A stretch of 63,418 bases of DNA, from the NCBI GenBank assembly GCA_004366205.1, contig SIRW01000053.1, positions 1 through 63,418 on the forward strand, written 5' to 3'. The notes beneath the pieces were generated by a model, which saw only the letters and a list, made by a program, of their open reading frames with translations, was not told the DNA's origin and ran no database searches. This DNA is from Actinomycetota bacterium. GTDB taxonomy: Bacteria; Actinomycetota; Acidimicrobiia; Acidimicrobiales; CADCSY01. Made by a program: the position numbers and the translations under genes. Below are positions 1 through 38,320 of this stretch, piece by piece. Within the stretch, counting starts at the first letter, position 1; each line of letters begins with the position of its first letter.

Positions 1-189
1 TTTCCGGACCCTCCGCGTGCACATACGACGTCGAGCGTCCGGAAAGCGCCGGCGCCGCCGGCCCCACCCCGCTTTCCGGACCCTTCGCGTGCACATACGA
101 CGTCGAGCGTCCGGAAAGCGCCGGCGCCGCCGGCCCCACCCCGCTTTCCGGACCCTCCGCGTGCACATACGACGTCGAGCGTCCGGAAA
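1..189. repeat. Tandem array of a 45-nt palindromic repeat (3 units, period 72)
   Basis: Three 45-nt units lie at 1-45, 73-117 and 145-189, separated by identical 27-nt spacers. Each unit begins TTTCCGGAC and ends GTCCGGAAA, a perfect 9-bp terminal inverted repeat, and has the internal core CATACGACGTC. Units differ at only one or two bases. The array may continue upstream of the window. The same element recurs at 16106-16294 and, inverted, at 38276-38320, always between genes. The function is unknown; a hairpin terminator or a REP/MITE-like element are possibilities. Confidence 0.9.
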
Positions 190-2737: not shown

Positions 2738-4294
2738 ATGGGGCTCGACCCCGGCGTGCACGTGCTGGTCAGCCCCGACCCGGTCAACGACGCCCTGCGG
2801 CTGGCGCGCGCCGCCCGGGCCGACCTGGCCACCACAGCCATCGAGGCCGAGCTCGCCATCGACCGCCGCCGCCGCTGCCTGCGGGCCCGCACGCTGGCCC
2901 GCACCGCCAGCGAGGCGGGCCGGCTCACCGACCTGATCGCCGCCGGCGACCCGCAGGCCGACGACGCGCTGCTCGGGTGCGCCGAGGAGCTGCGGGCCCT
3001 CGCCGCCGAGCCCGACCTGCGGCCCCGGGCGGACGCGCTGCGAGCGGCCGCGGCCGAGGTCCAGCGCGCCGAGGCCGTCGTGGCCGCGGCGGCCGCGGCG
3101 CGGGACCGGGCCCGCGCCGCACACGCCGACGCGACCCGCCGGCTCGAGCACCACCCCGCCCGGGGAGCGGCCGCCGACCCCGATCGGGCGCGGCTGCTGG
3201 CGGCCCGCGTCCACGACGCCGCAGACACGGTGCGGCGCCTCGAGCAGGACCAGCCCGCGGCGCCGCCACGCGATCCTGGCGCGTCGCGTGAGCTGCACCG
3301 CGCGTCGGTGCAGCTCGAGGCGGCACGGGACCAGGCCGCTCGGCTCCGCCGGCGAATCGCCATCCGGCTGCTCCAGGGCGCCGGCGCCGGGCTCGTCCTC
3401 GCCGGGTTCGCGCTCGACAACGAGCTGTCGACCACCACGGTCCTCGCCGCCATGCTGCTCCCCGTGCTCGTGGTCGCCCTGGCGATGGCACGCGCCCGCC
3501 AGCGCGTGCGCGCCGACCTCGACGCCGCCGGCCGCGCCGCCACAGCCGTGGCCGTGCGGCTGTTCCCCGACGCCGTGCCCCCCGAGGCGATCGGCGCCGC
3601 CCCGGGGTTCGTCATCGATCCGCTCGAGCTGCACCAGATGATCGAGGAGGCGAACGAGGAGCACCGGCGGCGCCTGAACGCGGCGACGGCGGCGCTCGAG
3701 GAGGCCATGGCGGCGTGGATCGACCTGGCCGGCGTCCACGCCGACGTGGACACGCTCGACGAGGTGCTGGGGCTGGCGGCGGAGGTGGCCACGACGGCCG
3801 AGTCGCTGACGGCCGCGGAGGTGGCGCTGGCGACCGGCGACCGGGAGCGGGAGGCCGCGCTCGACGCCTGGCGCCGCGCCGTCGACGCCGCCAGAGGCGC
3901 GCCCGACAGCGCCCCCGAGCGGCTGCCCGTCCTCCTGGCGGGCCTGCGGGAGCGCCAGGCCCGGCAGCGGGTCGCGGCGGGGCGCCTCGATGCGCTGCGG
4001 GCCGCCGAAGCGCGCGCCGAGGCGCGCGCCCGGCTCGCCGAGCTCCTGGCCGGCCGGTCCCTCGGCGAGCTCGACCGGGCGGCCCGGCACGCCGCCGCCG
4101 ACGCCGACCCCGAGCCCGAGCCCCGGCCGCTGGTGGTGGTCGACGCCGGCGAGGGGACGAGCGCCGTCCGGCGCCGGGCCCTGCGCCGCCTGCTCGACGA
4201 CCTCGACGGGGCCCTGCCCGTGGCGGTGGTGACCAGCGACGTCACGGCCCCGGAGTGGGACCGGGCGAAATCAGCCGGTCAGCTGAAGGACTGA
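2738..4294 (+). CDS. Coiled-coil membrane protein, function unknown
   Basis: I do not recognise this family. From the ATG at 2738 the product is 518 aa. It is dominated by Ala/Arg/Glu-rich helices likely to form coiled coils (about 30-210 and 300-460). They flank one hydrophobic hairpin of two membrane segments (about 215-265; GAGAGLVLAGFAL and AAMLLPVLVVALAMA). A short alpha/beta tail (PLVVVDAGEGTS, then VAVVTSD) follows. The frame is open from 2636; ATG 2738 is preferred because GGAGGA lies 13 nt before it and the upstream residues have no family character. Its 3' end overlaps the convergent erpA by 16 nt. Confidence 0.6.
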   Translation: MGLDPGVHVLVSPDPVNDALRLARAARADLATTAIEAELAIDRRRRCLRARTLARTASEAGRLTDLIAAGDPQADDALLGCAEELRALAAEPDLRPRADALRAAAAEVQRAEAVVAAAAAARDRARAAHADATRRLEHHPARGAAADPDRARLLAARVHDAADTVRRLEQDQPAAPPRDPGASRELHRASVQLEAARDQAARLRRRIAIRLLQGAGAGLVLAGFALDNELSTTTVLAAMLLPVLVVALAMARARQRVRADLDAAGRAATAVAVRLFPDAVPPEAIGAAPGFVIDPLELHQMIEEANEEHRRRLNAATAALEEAMAAWIDLAGVHADVDTLDEVLGLAAEVATTAESLTAAEVALATGDREREAALDAWRRAVDAARGAPDSAPERLPVLLAGLRERQARQRVAAGRLDALRAAEARAEARARLAELLAGRSLGELDRAARHAAADADPEPEPRPLVVVDAGEGTSAVRRRALRRLLDDLDGALPVAVVTSDVTAPEWDRAKSAGQLKD

Positions 4295-4599
4295 CCGCAG
4301 CCGCAGGTGCGCTGGGCGTTGGGGTTGTCGATGGAGAAGCCCGCCTGCTGCAGGCCGTCCCGGTAGTCGAGGGTGGCGCCAGTGAGGAGCTGGGCGCTCG
4401 AGGGGTCGACGACGACCTTCACCCCGCCGAAGTCCTCGGTGACGTCGTCGGCGCCGACCTCACGGTCGAAGAACATCTCGTAGCTGAACCCCGAGCAGCC
4501 GCCGGGACGGACCGCCACGCGCAGCGCGAGCGCGTCGTCGCCCTCGGCCTCGATGAGCTCCTTCACCTTCGTCGCGGCGCTGTCGGTGAGGGTGATCAC
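4279..4599 (-). CDS. erpA: Iron-sulfur cluster insertion protein, HesB/IscA/ErpA family
   Basis: This 106-aa A-type carrier has the usual family length. The three cluster-binding cysteines are C35 (GGCSGF), C99 and C101 (TCGCGQSF). It receives Fe-S clusters from the SUF or ISC scaffold and passes them to apo-enzymes in the cytoplasm. The GTG start has GAGGAGG upstream, and a TATCCT box lies further back at 4631-4636. Its neighbours are a cysteine-rich SufR-like regulator and mrp, so this stretch is a small Fe-S homeostasis cluster. The ErpA versus IscA distinction cannot be made from sequence alone. Confidence 0.9.
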   Translation of the reverse strand: MITLTDSAATKVKELIEAEGDDALALRVAVRPGGCSGFSYEMFFDREVGADDVTEDFGGVKVVVDPSSAQLLTGATLDYRDGLQQAGFSIDNPNAQRTCGCGQSFS

Positions 4600-4668
4600 C
4601 TGTGCCTCCTCGTCCTCGGTCGCTCCTTCAAGGATAGCGGCGACGGGCCCTCGCCCCCCACCGCAAAC

Positions 4669-5355
4669 TCACCCGGCGGCCAGCTCGACCCGGCAGGGGT
4701 CCCGGTCGACGAGCGTGCGGAACCGCACGACGCGCCCGCCGCCGTGCTCCTCGACGAAGCCCTCGACCATGCCCCGGTGCAGGTGGCAGACGACCTCGGG
4801 GTGCGCCTGGGCGACCTCGCCGAACGGGCAGTGCGTGAAGGCGATCGTGGTGCCCTCGGCGTCGGTGGCCACGGCGGGGTCGAAGCCGAGGCGGGCGAGC
4901 TCAGCGGTGAGGGCTTCGACGCAGGGAAGGCGGCGCGTGCCGTGCGCCGTCGAGCGACCGAAGGACGCTCCGGCGGCGGCCACCTCGTCCTCGCCGGGGC
5001 GGGCGGCGGCGGCGACGTCGGCGAGCAGCGACGCCAGCACGGGGTAAGCGGGCGGCTCGAGCCCCAGGGACGGGGCGTCGGGCGCCGGGAAGTAGCGGTG
5101 CTGCGGGCGGCCCACCACCCCCCGGGCGTCGGCGCGCACCTCGAGCAGGCCGACCTCGCGCATGCGCTCGAGGTGCGGGCGGACCGTGTTGGGGTGCAGG
5201 CCGAGCGTCTCGGCGACGTCGGCGGTGCTCAGCGGCACCGGTGACCGCACCAGCTCGAGGTAGATGGCGTAGCGGGTGTTGTCGCCGAGGGTCTTGAGCA
5301 CCTCGAGCCGGGCCTGGGGTGCGGGATCCGCCGCGTGCTCGTGTGGGTCGGCCAC
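4669..5355 (-). CDS. ArsR/SufR-like HTH regulator with C-terminal cysteines
   Basis: This 228-aa protein has a winged HTH at about 20-85 (STADVAETLGLHPNTVRPHL is the recognition region). The C-terminal domain carries four cysteines, C145, C176, C190 and C221. That spacing resembles SufR-type repressors, which bind an Fe-S cluster and control suf genes. It is divergent from mrp and upstream of erpA, which fits an Fe-S sensing role. The GTG start follows a TAATCT box by 6 nt, so the message is probably leaderless. The cluster-binding role is inferred from cysteine pattern and context. Confidence 0.75.
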   Translation of the reverse strand: MADPHEHAADPAPQARLEVLKTLGDNTRYAIYLELVRSPVPLSTADVAETLGLHPNTVRPHLERMREVGLLEVRADARGVVGRPQHRYFPAPDAPSLGLEPPAYPVLASLLADVAAAARPGEDEVAAAGASFGRSTAHGTRRLPCVEALTAELARLGFDPAVATDAEGTTIAFTHCPFGEVAQAHPEVVCHLHRGMVEGFVEEHGGGRVVRFRTLVDRDPCRVELAAG

Positions 5356-16105: not shown

Positions 16106-16294
16106 TTTCCGGACCCTCCACGTCACATACCAGCGTCGAGCGCCCGGAAAACGAGCGCACGGGCGGCCCCGCAGCGCTTTCCGGACCCTCCACGTCACAT
16201 ACCAGCGTCGAGCGCCCGGAAAACGAGCGCACGGGCGGCCCCGCGGCACTTTCCGGACCCTCCACGTCACATACCAGCGTCGAGCGTCCGGAAA
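16106..16294. repeat. Tandem array of the 45-nt palindromic repeat (3 units, period 72)
   Basis: Units lie at 16106-16150, 16178-16222 and 16250-16294, again with period 72 and 27-nt spacers. The core here is CATACCAGCGTC. In units 1 and 2 the right end reads GCCCGGAAA, one base off a perfect arm; unit 3 ends GTCCGGAAA. The array fills the 234-nt gap between two convergent genes. Unit length and period match the array at 1-189, while the spacer sequence differs. Confidence 0.9.
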
Positions 16295-18570: not shown

Positions 18571-18606
18571 ACCGCGCCGGCCGCCCGCCCGCCCGTGCGG
18601 GGGACG

Positions 18607-18619: not shown

Positions 18620-19876
18620 GTGACGGAGGAGCGACCCCCCAGCGTCGACGCCCTGGCCCGTTCGATCGCCGACGTGGGCCTGCCTCACCCGCTGCTCGTC
18701 GACGCCGCCCGGGCCGCCATCGCCGCCGGGGTCCCCGGCTCGGCCCGGGCCCGGGCGCAGGCAGCCGCCCGGGCCCTGCTGCGCCGGGTGGTGAACGCCA
18801 CGGGCGTGCTGCTGCACACCAACCTCGGCCGGGCACCGCTCGGGGCCACCGGTGCGCTGGGAGCGACCAACCTCGAGCTCGACCTCGACACCGGCCGCCG
18901 CGGCTCGCGGCGGGCGCACGCGGGGCGCCTGCTGGCCCGGGCGGGCGGGGCCGAGGACGCCCTCGTGGTCAACAACGGGGCCGCCGCGGTGCTGCTCGCC
19001 TTGGCCGCCCTCGCCGCCGGCCGGTCGGTGGTGGTGAGCCGGGGCGAGCTCGTTGAGATCGGCGGCGGCTTCCGGATCCCCGACGTGCTGGCCCAGTCCG
19101 GGGCCCGCCTGGTCGAGGTCGGCACGACCAACCGCACCCGCCTGGCGGACTACGAGCGGGCGCTGGCCCACGATCCTGCGCTGATCCTGAAGGTGCACCG
19201 CTCGAACTACCGGATCACCGGGTTCACCGAGGAGGTGGAGGTCGCCGAGCTCGTCCGGCTCGGGCGGCCCGTCGTCGTGGACCTGGGCTCGGGGCTGCTC
19301 GACGCCGCCTGCCCCTGGCTGGCGGGCGGACCGCCGGCGTGGCTCGCCGGTGAGCCCGCCGTCCGCCAGACCCTCGCCACCGGCGCGACGCTCGTCACCT
19401 TCTCGGGCGACAAGCTCCTCGGGGGCCCGCAGGCGGGCGTGCTGGCCGGCGCGCGCGTCGCGGTGGAGGCCTGCGCCCGCCACCCGCTCGCCCGGGCCCT
19501 GCGCCCCGGCGGCCTCGTGCTCGGGGCGCTCCAGGAGGCCGCGCTCGCCTACCTTCGCCGGCAGGGGGACGCCATCCCGTTCTGGCGGATGGCCACCCTC
19601 ACCGTCGAGCAGCTGCGGGATCGGGCCGCCGCCCTGGGGGTGGGCGAGGTGGTCGAGCTGGCCGCCGTGCCGGGTGGCGGGACGCTACCCGGGGTGGAGA
19701 TCCCCTCGGCGGGCGTGGCCGTGCCGGGTGACCACAGCGCCGCCCTGCGCGCCCACGAACCACCCGTGATCGCCCGGGTCGCGGAGAACCGGACGCTGTG
19801 CGACCTGCGCACGGTGGACCCGGCCGACGACGGCGTCGTCGCCGCCGCCCTCAGGTCGGCGGGCGCGACCGCGTGA
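18620..19876 (+). CDS. selA: L-seryl-tRNA(Sec) selenium transferase
   Basis: This 418-aa PLP enzyme converts Ser-tRNA(Sec) to Sec-tRNA(Sec) using selenophosphate. It shows the family segments NATGVLLHTNLGRAPL, VVNNGAAAVLLAL and the PLP lysine in FSGDKLLGGPQAG. It is slightly shorter than the usual 450-470 aa, mainly at the N-terminus. Its stop overlaps the selB start (TGATG), so the two are translationally coupled. The pair implies selenoprotein synthesis, but no selC, selD or obvious selenoprotein gene was found in the window. Confidence 0.92.
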   Translation: MTEERPPSVDALARSIADVGLPHPLLVDAARAAIAAGVPGSARARAQAAARALLRRVVNATGVLLHTNLGRAPLGATGALGATNLELDLDTGRRGSRRAHAGRLLARAGGAEDALVVNNGAAAVLLALAALAAGRSVVVSRGELVEIGGGFRIPDVLAQSGARLVEVGTTNRTRLADYERALAHDPALILKVHRSNYRITGFTEEVEVAELVRLGRPVVVDLGSGLLDAACPWLAGGPPAWLAGEPAVRQTLATGATLVTFSGDKLLGGPQAGVLAGARVAVEACARHPLARALRPGGLVLGALQEAALAYLRRQGDAIPFWRMATLTVEQLRDRAAALGVGEVVELAAVPGGGTLPGVEIPSAGVAVPGDHSAALRAHEPPVIARVAENRTLCDLRTVDPADDGVVAAALRSAGATA

Positions 19877-21654: not shown

Positions 21655-21714
21655 GCGCCCGTCCCCGAGGACGAGCGCGCCGGAACCCGGCGCGGGGTGC
21701 CTCGAGCTTCGCGG

Positions 21715-28462: not shown

Positions 28463-28576
28463 CCGCGAGCTCGAGGCCCAGCGCACCGGAACCCGCCACG
28501 CCCAGCCTCGAGAACGCGCAGCACCGCGAGCTCGAGGCCCAGCGCACCGGAGCCCGGCACGCCCAGCCTCGAGAAC
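28463..28576. repeat. Tandem 53-nt repeat with CTCGAGG inverted ends (2 units, period 61)
   Basis: Two nearly identical 53-nt units lie at 28463-28515 and 28524-28576. Each contains CTCGAGG and, 29 nt further on, CCTCGAG, a 7-bp terminal inverted repeat spanning 43 nt. The architecture resembles the 45-nt repeat family, but the sequence is unrelated. The units fill most of the 228-nt gap between the flavodoxin-like gene and asd. Confidence 0.85.
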
Positions 28577-28644
28577 GGGAAGGGTGGCGGGAAGGGGGGA
28601 CCGGAGCGGGGTGGAATCGTCGGGGCCGGGGCGAGGGGGGCCGG

Positions 28645-38275: not shown

Positions 38276-38320
38276 TTTCCGGACCGCAGACGTCGTATGC
38301 CGACCTCGATCGTCCGGAAA
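38276..38320. repeat. Single inverted copy of the 45-nt palindromic repeat
   Basis: The unit is exactly 45 nt with perfect TTTCCGGAC/GTCCGGAAA ends. Its centre reads GACGTCGTATG, the reverse complement of the CATACGACGTC core in the 1-189 array, so this copy is inverted. It lies between the convergent aat and flavin oxidoreductase genes. Confidence 0.88.

Follow-up and report, generated by a model that had tools for sequence, protein, structure and literature searches.

Palindromic repeats of an acidimicrobial genome and their pairing with genes for predicted AbiEi-nuclease fusion proteins

Palindromic repeats in the window and its genome

The window, by which we mean the whole stretch of 63,418 nucleotides analysed here (contig SIRW01000053.1 of an Actinomycetota genome, order Acidimicrobiales), carries seven units of a palindrome, each of exactly 45 nt, that we refer to as family 1. 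Three of them make up array A at the start of the contig (1..45, 73..117 and 145..189), three make up array B (16106..16150, 16178..16222 and 16250..16294), both with a period of 72 nt, and a solo, inverted copy lies at 38276..38320. All seven are intergenic by codon-usage gene calls, array B and the solo copy lying between convergent genes. In each of these respects the original prediction, which was made from the letters of the window, proved accurate. Its description of shared ends and a common core also holds, with small exceptions: all units have the end boxes, two of those in array B having one mismatch each (GCCCGGAAA), and exact copies of the core CATACGACGTC are confined to array A and the 38.3-kb unit (minus strand), the units of array B carrying CATACCAGCGTC in its place. 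The contig end at base 1 of the window cuts array A, and contig C119 of the same genome also starts with a family-1 unit (C119:41-85); the true array is probably longer than seen, the assembly having broken within it. An Rfam scan of the window returned tRNAs only.

A second family in the window was missed by the original prediction. Family 2 (CTCGAGG...CCTCGAG, 43 nt) occupies 28470..28512 and, as a second tandem unit, 28531..28573, with a degenerate copy at 21664..21706 (one end-box mismatch, 14 of 21 pairs). Its cognate nuclease gene, on contig C91 (locus L173), is bracketed by the same family, and the period of 61 nt in the window equals that of the nuclease's own pair. The period-61 tandem repeat as a whole (28463-28582) lies between two same-strand genes, the downstream one of which looks like aspartate-semialdehyde dehydrogenase.

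The genome from which the window comes (G000, 3.44 Mb) contains 36 exact units of the form TTTCCGGAC-N27-GTCCGGAAA, with end boxes of 9 nt, and none at the other spacers from 22 to 30; the reversed control for the exact form gives none. When up to three mismatches are allowed in the end boxes there are 68 matches, against one in the reversed control, or about 67 units, and the abundance of the repeat in G000 is not due to chance. The 56 copies that were fetched fall into 47 distinct sequences, in which the end boxes are nearly invariant, one half (TCGACGTCGCATG) is conserved and the other is variable; the outer flanks are mostly CRC and GYG around the ends. Gene context at 33 loci, from the codon-usage caller, is convergent at 12, divergent at 8 and tandem at 9, with three loci at contig ends and one over a called gene. 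A dispersed, intergenic repeat with a species-specific sequence, present singly and in tandem arrays, supports the amplified, REP-like element that had been proposed.

The exact family-1 sequence is absent from the 297 other genomes of the order and, among 84,980 species genomes, appears only as 13 singletons in unrelated taxa, which we reject as chance matches, most of them having non-palindromic interiors. Within G000 we found no compensatory changes in the inner arms: the inner pairs number 248, fewer than the 277 +/- 10 of shuffled sequences. A hairpin kept by base pairing is therefore rejected there, and the full hairpin is not the conserved thing in this genome. Between genomes the arms strongly co-vary; this co-variation follows subfamilies and so is not taken as proof of an RNA hairpin. 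Flanks of the solo units, read by eye, show no target-site duplication.

Tandem loci of family 1 have a period of 71-73 nt in 15 of 18 cases, the exceptions being 79-88 nt. A single ancestral spacer does not lie behind this regularity, since the spacers of different loci are close to unrelated (core 8.8 against 8.4 +/- 0.15 matches). In the clearest arrays (L046 and L051) the spacer joins part of the downstream flank to part of the upstream flank (16+11 nt in the one, 18+8 nt in the other), so that array growth is by duplication of a segment of about 72 nt that surrounds the palindrome and is nearly constant in size. Periods in other families are different: 61 nt in family 2 and about 60 nt in the genome G145.

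A nuclease gene between palindromes

The original prediction suggested a search for a REP-associated (TnpA-REP) transposase, and the result was negative: PF01797 has no matches in G000, the control genomes being positive, and a RAYT/IS200 transposase is rejected. The single gene found between two nearby copies of the palindrome instead encodes the same protein family in G000 (contig C80), G027 (C10) and G145 (C226). On C80 this gene occupies 18793-19713 (306 aa), with two palindromes on each side, at 18593 and 18666 before it and at 19755 and 19843 after it. One gene only lies between the palindromes here and at the other loci inspected, with no adjacent AbiEii nucleotidyltransferase toxin gene, and the nuclease genes are free-standing rather than contained in a group I intron, an intein or a conserved host target.

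PADLOC AbiEi models match residues 7-179 of the C80 protein (E=3.6e-32), and among the Pfam models AbiEi_4, MTES_1575 and DUF559 weakly match the proteins of G145 and G027. A profile of 46 homologues matches 3hrl, the mobile-intron endonuclease 3r3p and Vsr. In Foldseek comparisons using an AlphaFold model (pLDDT 94.6, pTM 0.87), the N-terminal part resembles the AbiEi antitoxin 6y8q and the C-terminal part I-Bth0305I (3r3p, probability 1.00). Among the conserved residues, D238 and E249 are invariant in the 46 homologues and E208, H256, D265 and R268 are present in at least 91%. By profile and modelled structure, the partner protein is a predicted fusion of an AbiEi-type DNA-binding domain (residues 1-180) to a Vsr/I-Bth0305I-like PD-(D/E)XK nuclease of the EDxHD type (about 200-300).

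Further genes of this kind were noted at individual loci. Two G000 paralogues are bracketed by palindromes of their own, TTTCCGGGCACTT... at L152 (C93:1408-2283) and GTTCTGTGAGG... at L172 (C37:8538-9416). Stand-alone palindrome-flanked nucleases at L143, L144, L141 and L208 are matched by the PADLOC AbiEi defence models, with E down to 1e-32.

Pairing of nucleases and palindromes in related genomes

The original prediction would have been refuted had the element been missing from the rest of the genome and from relatives, and it is not: copies abound in G000, and relatives have palindromes of equal length whose sequences differ from the window's. With relaxed end boxes the latter come to light both in the same taxonomic family and in a second one of the order, and a covariance model places palindromes in 47 of 298 genomes, in multiple copies in about fifteen and nearly always of 45 nt. 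This length is partly set by fixed-length patterns; the gap-allowing covariance model and a free-length flank search agree with it, the latter giving mostly 45 nt, and 41-49 nt for other nucleases. The sequence is private to each genome, even between two species of one genus (G027 and G145). Dispersed cognate palindromes comprise the copies of family 1 in G000, the families of G027, G298 and two G145 nucleases, and the C91 family in the window, per-genome copy counts for families other than family 1 being lower bounds. In G145 each of the two nucleases has scattered copies of its own palindrome, and at one site a solo element of G145 is missing from the orthologous position in G484, where 7 nt rather than 70 separate the same genes (flanks about 77% identical). 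Locus L103 of G145 (1563-1607) is a solo copy of another palindrome, TTTGTACAG...CTGTACAAA, which is cognate to the L153 nuclease and scattered in several copies in G145 and G487, two genomes with 97% identity at the locus compared.

Homologues of the nuclease number 2-11 per genome in the 11 palindrome-bearing genomes of the order. In nine of these, one homologue adjoins the genome's own dispersed palindrome. It has a copy on each side at every such locus with two clearly readable flanks, apart from G271, where only one side is convincing; no nuclease adjoining the dispersed palindrome was found in G005 or G253. Further homologues have other palindromes on both sides, of 41-49 nt, for example CTTTCGTGCGTCAATGCCCAATAGTTGGGCATTGACGCACGAAAG in G197. 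Scoring as repeated any pair of 220-nt flanks that agree at 25 or more positions of a 30-nt stretch, we find repeated flanks at 28 of 43 homologues in the 11 genomes and at 2 of 116 control genes (Fisher p=4.6e-18); of the two positive controls, one is the C80 nuclease and the other a gene between two copies beside the G027 nuclease, so that the figure for other genes is about 1 in 115. The 15 homologues without repeated flanks include some in G000 (C93b, C93c and C59). The pairing recurs across the phylum, 9 of 24 homologues outside the order having repeated flanks (p=1.3e-6). It was also reached independently, in that the flanking palindromes at G298 C88 and G197 C100 had been listed before a nuclease was sought, and again at G103 C88.

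Palindrome sequence varies from gene to gene, is shared by the two sides of any one gene and is often seen again in solo copies. Where the two flanks of a gene are compared, identity stops within a few bases of the palindrome edge. Gene and palindrome also change together. At the sucCD locus, an orthologous nuclease is found in eight species of one genus, including G027, with 47-56% identity to the G027 protein, and it is flanked by palindromes of about 45 nt that start with TCTGTG and differ from species to species in their inner sequence, on either side of the gene. Nuclease distance correlates with palindrome-arm distance (Mantel r=0.21, p=0.0006, 32 pairs). The gene at sucCD is inherited vertically and so need not itself be moving now. 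At L108 of G027 (2759-5309) two palindromes beside the nuclease enclose a pyridine-nucleotide reductase-like gene, and the syntenic relatives inspected have dinB-palindrome-nuclease only; the arrangement looks like a gene and a palindrome inserted by recombination at a palindrome. In the open-access papers, of which coverage was incomplete, we found no link between DUF559 and flanking palindromes.

A proposed two-part element and its alternatives

These findings point to a repeat-spreading gene of a kind previously unreported in bacteria. The pairing of gene and palindrome is shown; that the protein binds the palindrome, cuts there and thereby causes its spread is what we infer. Recognition of the palindrome by the protein is the firmer part of this and is probable; that the enzyme drives the spread is, in our judgement, somewhat more likely than not. 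The reading that we favour, with reserve, is that homing-type nucleases flanked by palindromes spread and maintain their cognate palindromes and would form with them a selfish system of two parts, the repeats in cis and the AbiEi-nuclease fusion of about 300 aa in trans. A dimer of the nuclease would bind the two-fold symmetric palindrome of about 45 bp via its AbiEi modules and would cut or nick at or near it; repair might then copy, duplicate or lose the palindrome and, at times, the bracketed gene. Solo palindromes would in this way spread as non-autonomous, REP-like elements and expand into tandem arrays, and both flanks of the gene could change sequence together with the scattered copies. 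Nucleases of this fold hydrolyse DNA and have no known strand-transfer activity, so spread to non-homologous sites would need host repair. The widest form of the claim, on which we are evenly divided, is that of a new class of prokaryotic mobile element across Actinomycetota, in which AbiEi-EDxHD nucleases recognise, cut and disperse their own palindromes of about 45 bp as a hydrolytic counterpart of REP/RAYT, with many orthogonal pairs and several per genome.

The constituent parts have precedents. The catalytic domain is like I-Bth0305I in fold and sequence, and that enzyme dimerises on a long DNA target, nearly 60 bp in length (PMC3943268), to which the 45-bp palindrome is comparable; the gene here differs in standing outside any intron or intein, in its AbiEi-like DNA-binding part, and in being bracketed by dispersed palindromes instead of located in a conserved host gene. 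The first 180 or so residues resemble the antitoxin of AbiE type IV toxin-antitoxin systems, and AbiEi binds inverted repeats (PMC7319586); unlike those systems, a nuclease domain follows here and the space between the palindromes holds no partner toxin gene.

This last resemblance underlies the main rival, an operator model in which the palindromes bind the AbiEi-like domain, autoregulate the nuclease and perhaps mark or protect the chromosome, the dispersed copies being regulatory or decoy sites whose spread is not the work of the protein. Inverted repeats in the promoters of AbiEi antitoxins are bound by the antitoxins themselves (PMC7319586), the nuclease start codon usually has one palindrome 50-130 nt ahead of it, and conservation within the genome resembles that of protein boxes and not of base pairing. 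The model nevertheless leaves unexplained the second copy past the stop codon, the identity that ends at the palindrome edges, the dozens of solo copies between ordinary genes, the tandem arrays and the empty orthologous site, and we consider it unlikely.

Far less probable is that the repeat is an ordinary REP/BIME or MITE mobilised by a transposase of conventional type (RAYT, IS200/IS605 or DDE), and that nucleases merely insert at or near palindromes. REP/RAYT 'REPtrons' are alike in that these too are short intergenic palindromes in dozens of copies, species-specific, single or in regular arrays, with an enzyme gene that is bracketed by cognate palindromes and co-varies with the repeat (PMC2817692, PMC3733652). 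The enzyme here is, by contrast, an AbiEi/PD-(D/E)XK fusion instead of a Y1 HUH transposase; its palindrome, 41-49 nt and of near-fixed length, has no GTAG/CGTC foot; and the flanking copies are direct, each a full palindrome. Membership of REP/RAYT is rejected, and RAYT contradicted in G000, on the missing Y1_Tnp and GTAG foot. Each nuclease, moreover, has its own palindrome with which it co-varies, and insertion of a gene would split a palindrome rather than leave an intact copy on each side. MITEs and solo LTRs share with these repeats the short non-coding copies alongside a gene-bearing unit with matching ends, and differ in that each end here is a complete palindrome; by eye, no target-site duplication is visible at solo units. 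CGTC-tagged REPs are likewise scattered short palindromes for which no dedicated transposase or other candidate enzyme was found (PMC3733652); theirs have stems of 8-9 bp and loops of 4-5 nt, there is no CGTC tag at one end here, and the phyla listed for them do not include Actinobacteria (PMC3733652).

A bidirectional terminator or mRNA 3'-end hairpin, spread through its usefulness, had been one of the roles offered by the original prediction, and is very improbable. Units often begin within 10-60 nt of stop codons, and the neighbouring genes converge at 12 of the 29 loci that can be classified. Against this, they diverge at 8 of the 29, the inner arms do not co-vary within G000, and the stem reads 5'-TTT...AAA-3' in either direction with no U-tract after it, a wrong polarity that, with the many divergent sites, leads us to reject an intrinsic terminator; bracketing of one gene family and the change of sequence between species would also go unexplained. 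Sites for a nucleoid-organising or chromosome-segregation protein that sets the tandem spacing would fit a constant period with mostly varying spacers, and are equally improbable given sequences that differ even within one genus, are tied to individual nuclease genes and coexist as several unrelated families in one genome. The interpretation originally offered is, as a whole, partly supported.

Should the proposal of nuclease-driven spread be right, it would account for a class of species-specific repeats, and the enzymes known to spread short repeats would come to include a hydrolytic nuclease. No candidate enzyme had been available for REP-like repeats that lack a RAYT; a specific, testable enzyme family now pairs with them phylum-wide, one enzyme per palindrome family, and would supply many natural pairs of a nuclease and its long, symmetric target site. 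Many genes that match 'AbiEi' defence models may then be selfish nucleases, and actinobacterial AbiE defence calls may include many palindrome-flanked nuclease genes.

A minor observation concerns gene ends in G145, where the palindromes at L100 (986), L102 (2406), L104 (2179) and L107 (2149) overlap the end of the upstream gene and provide its stop codon (TTTG-TGA-GC).
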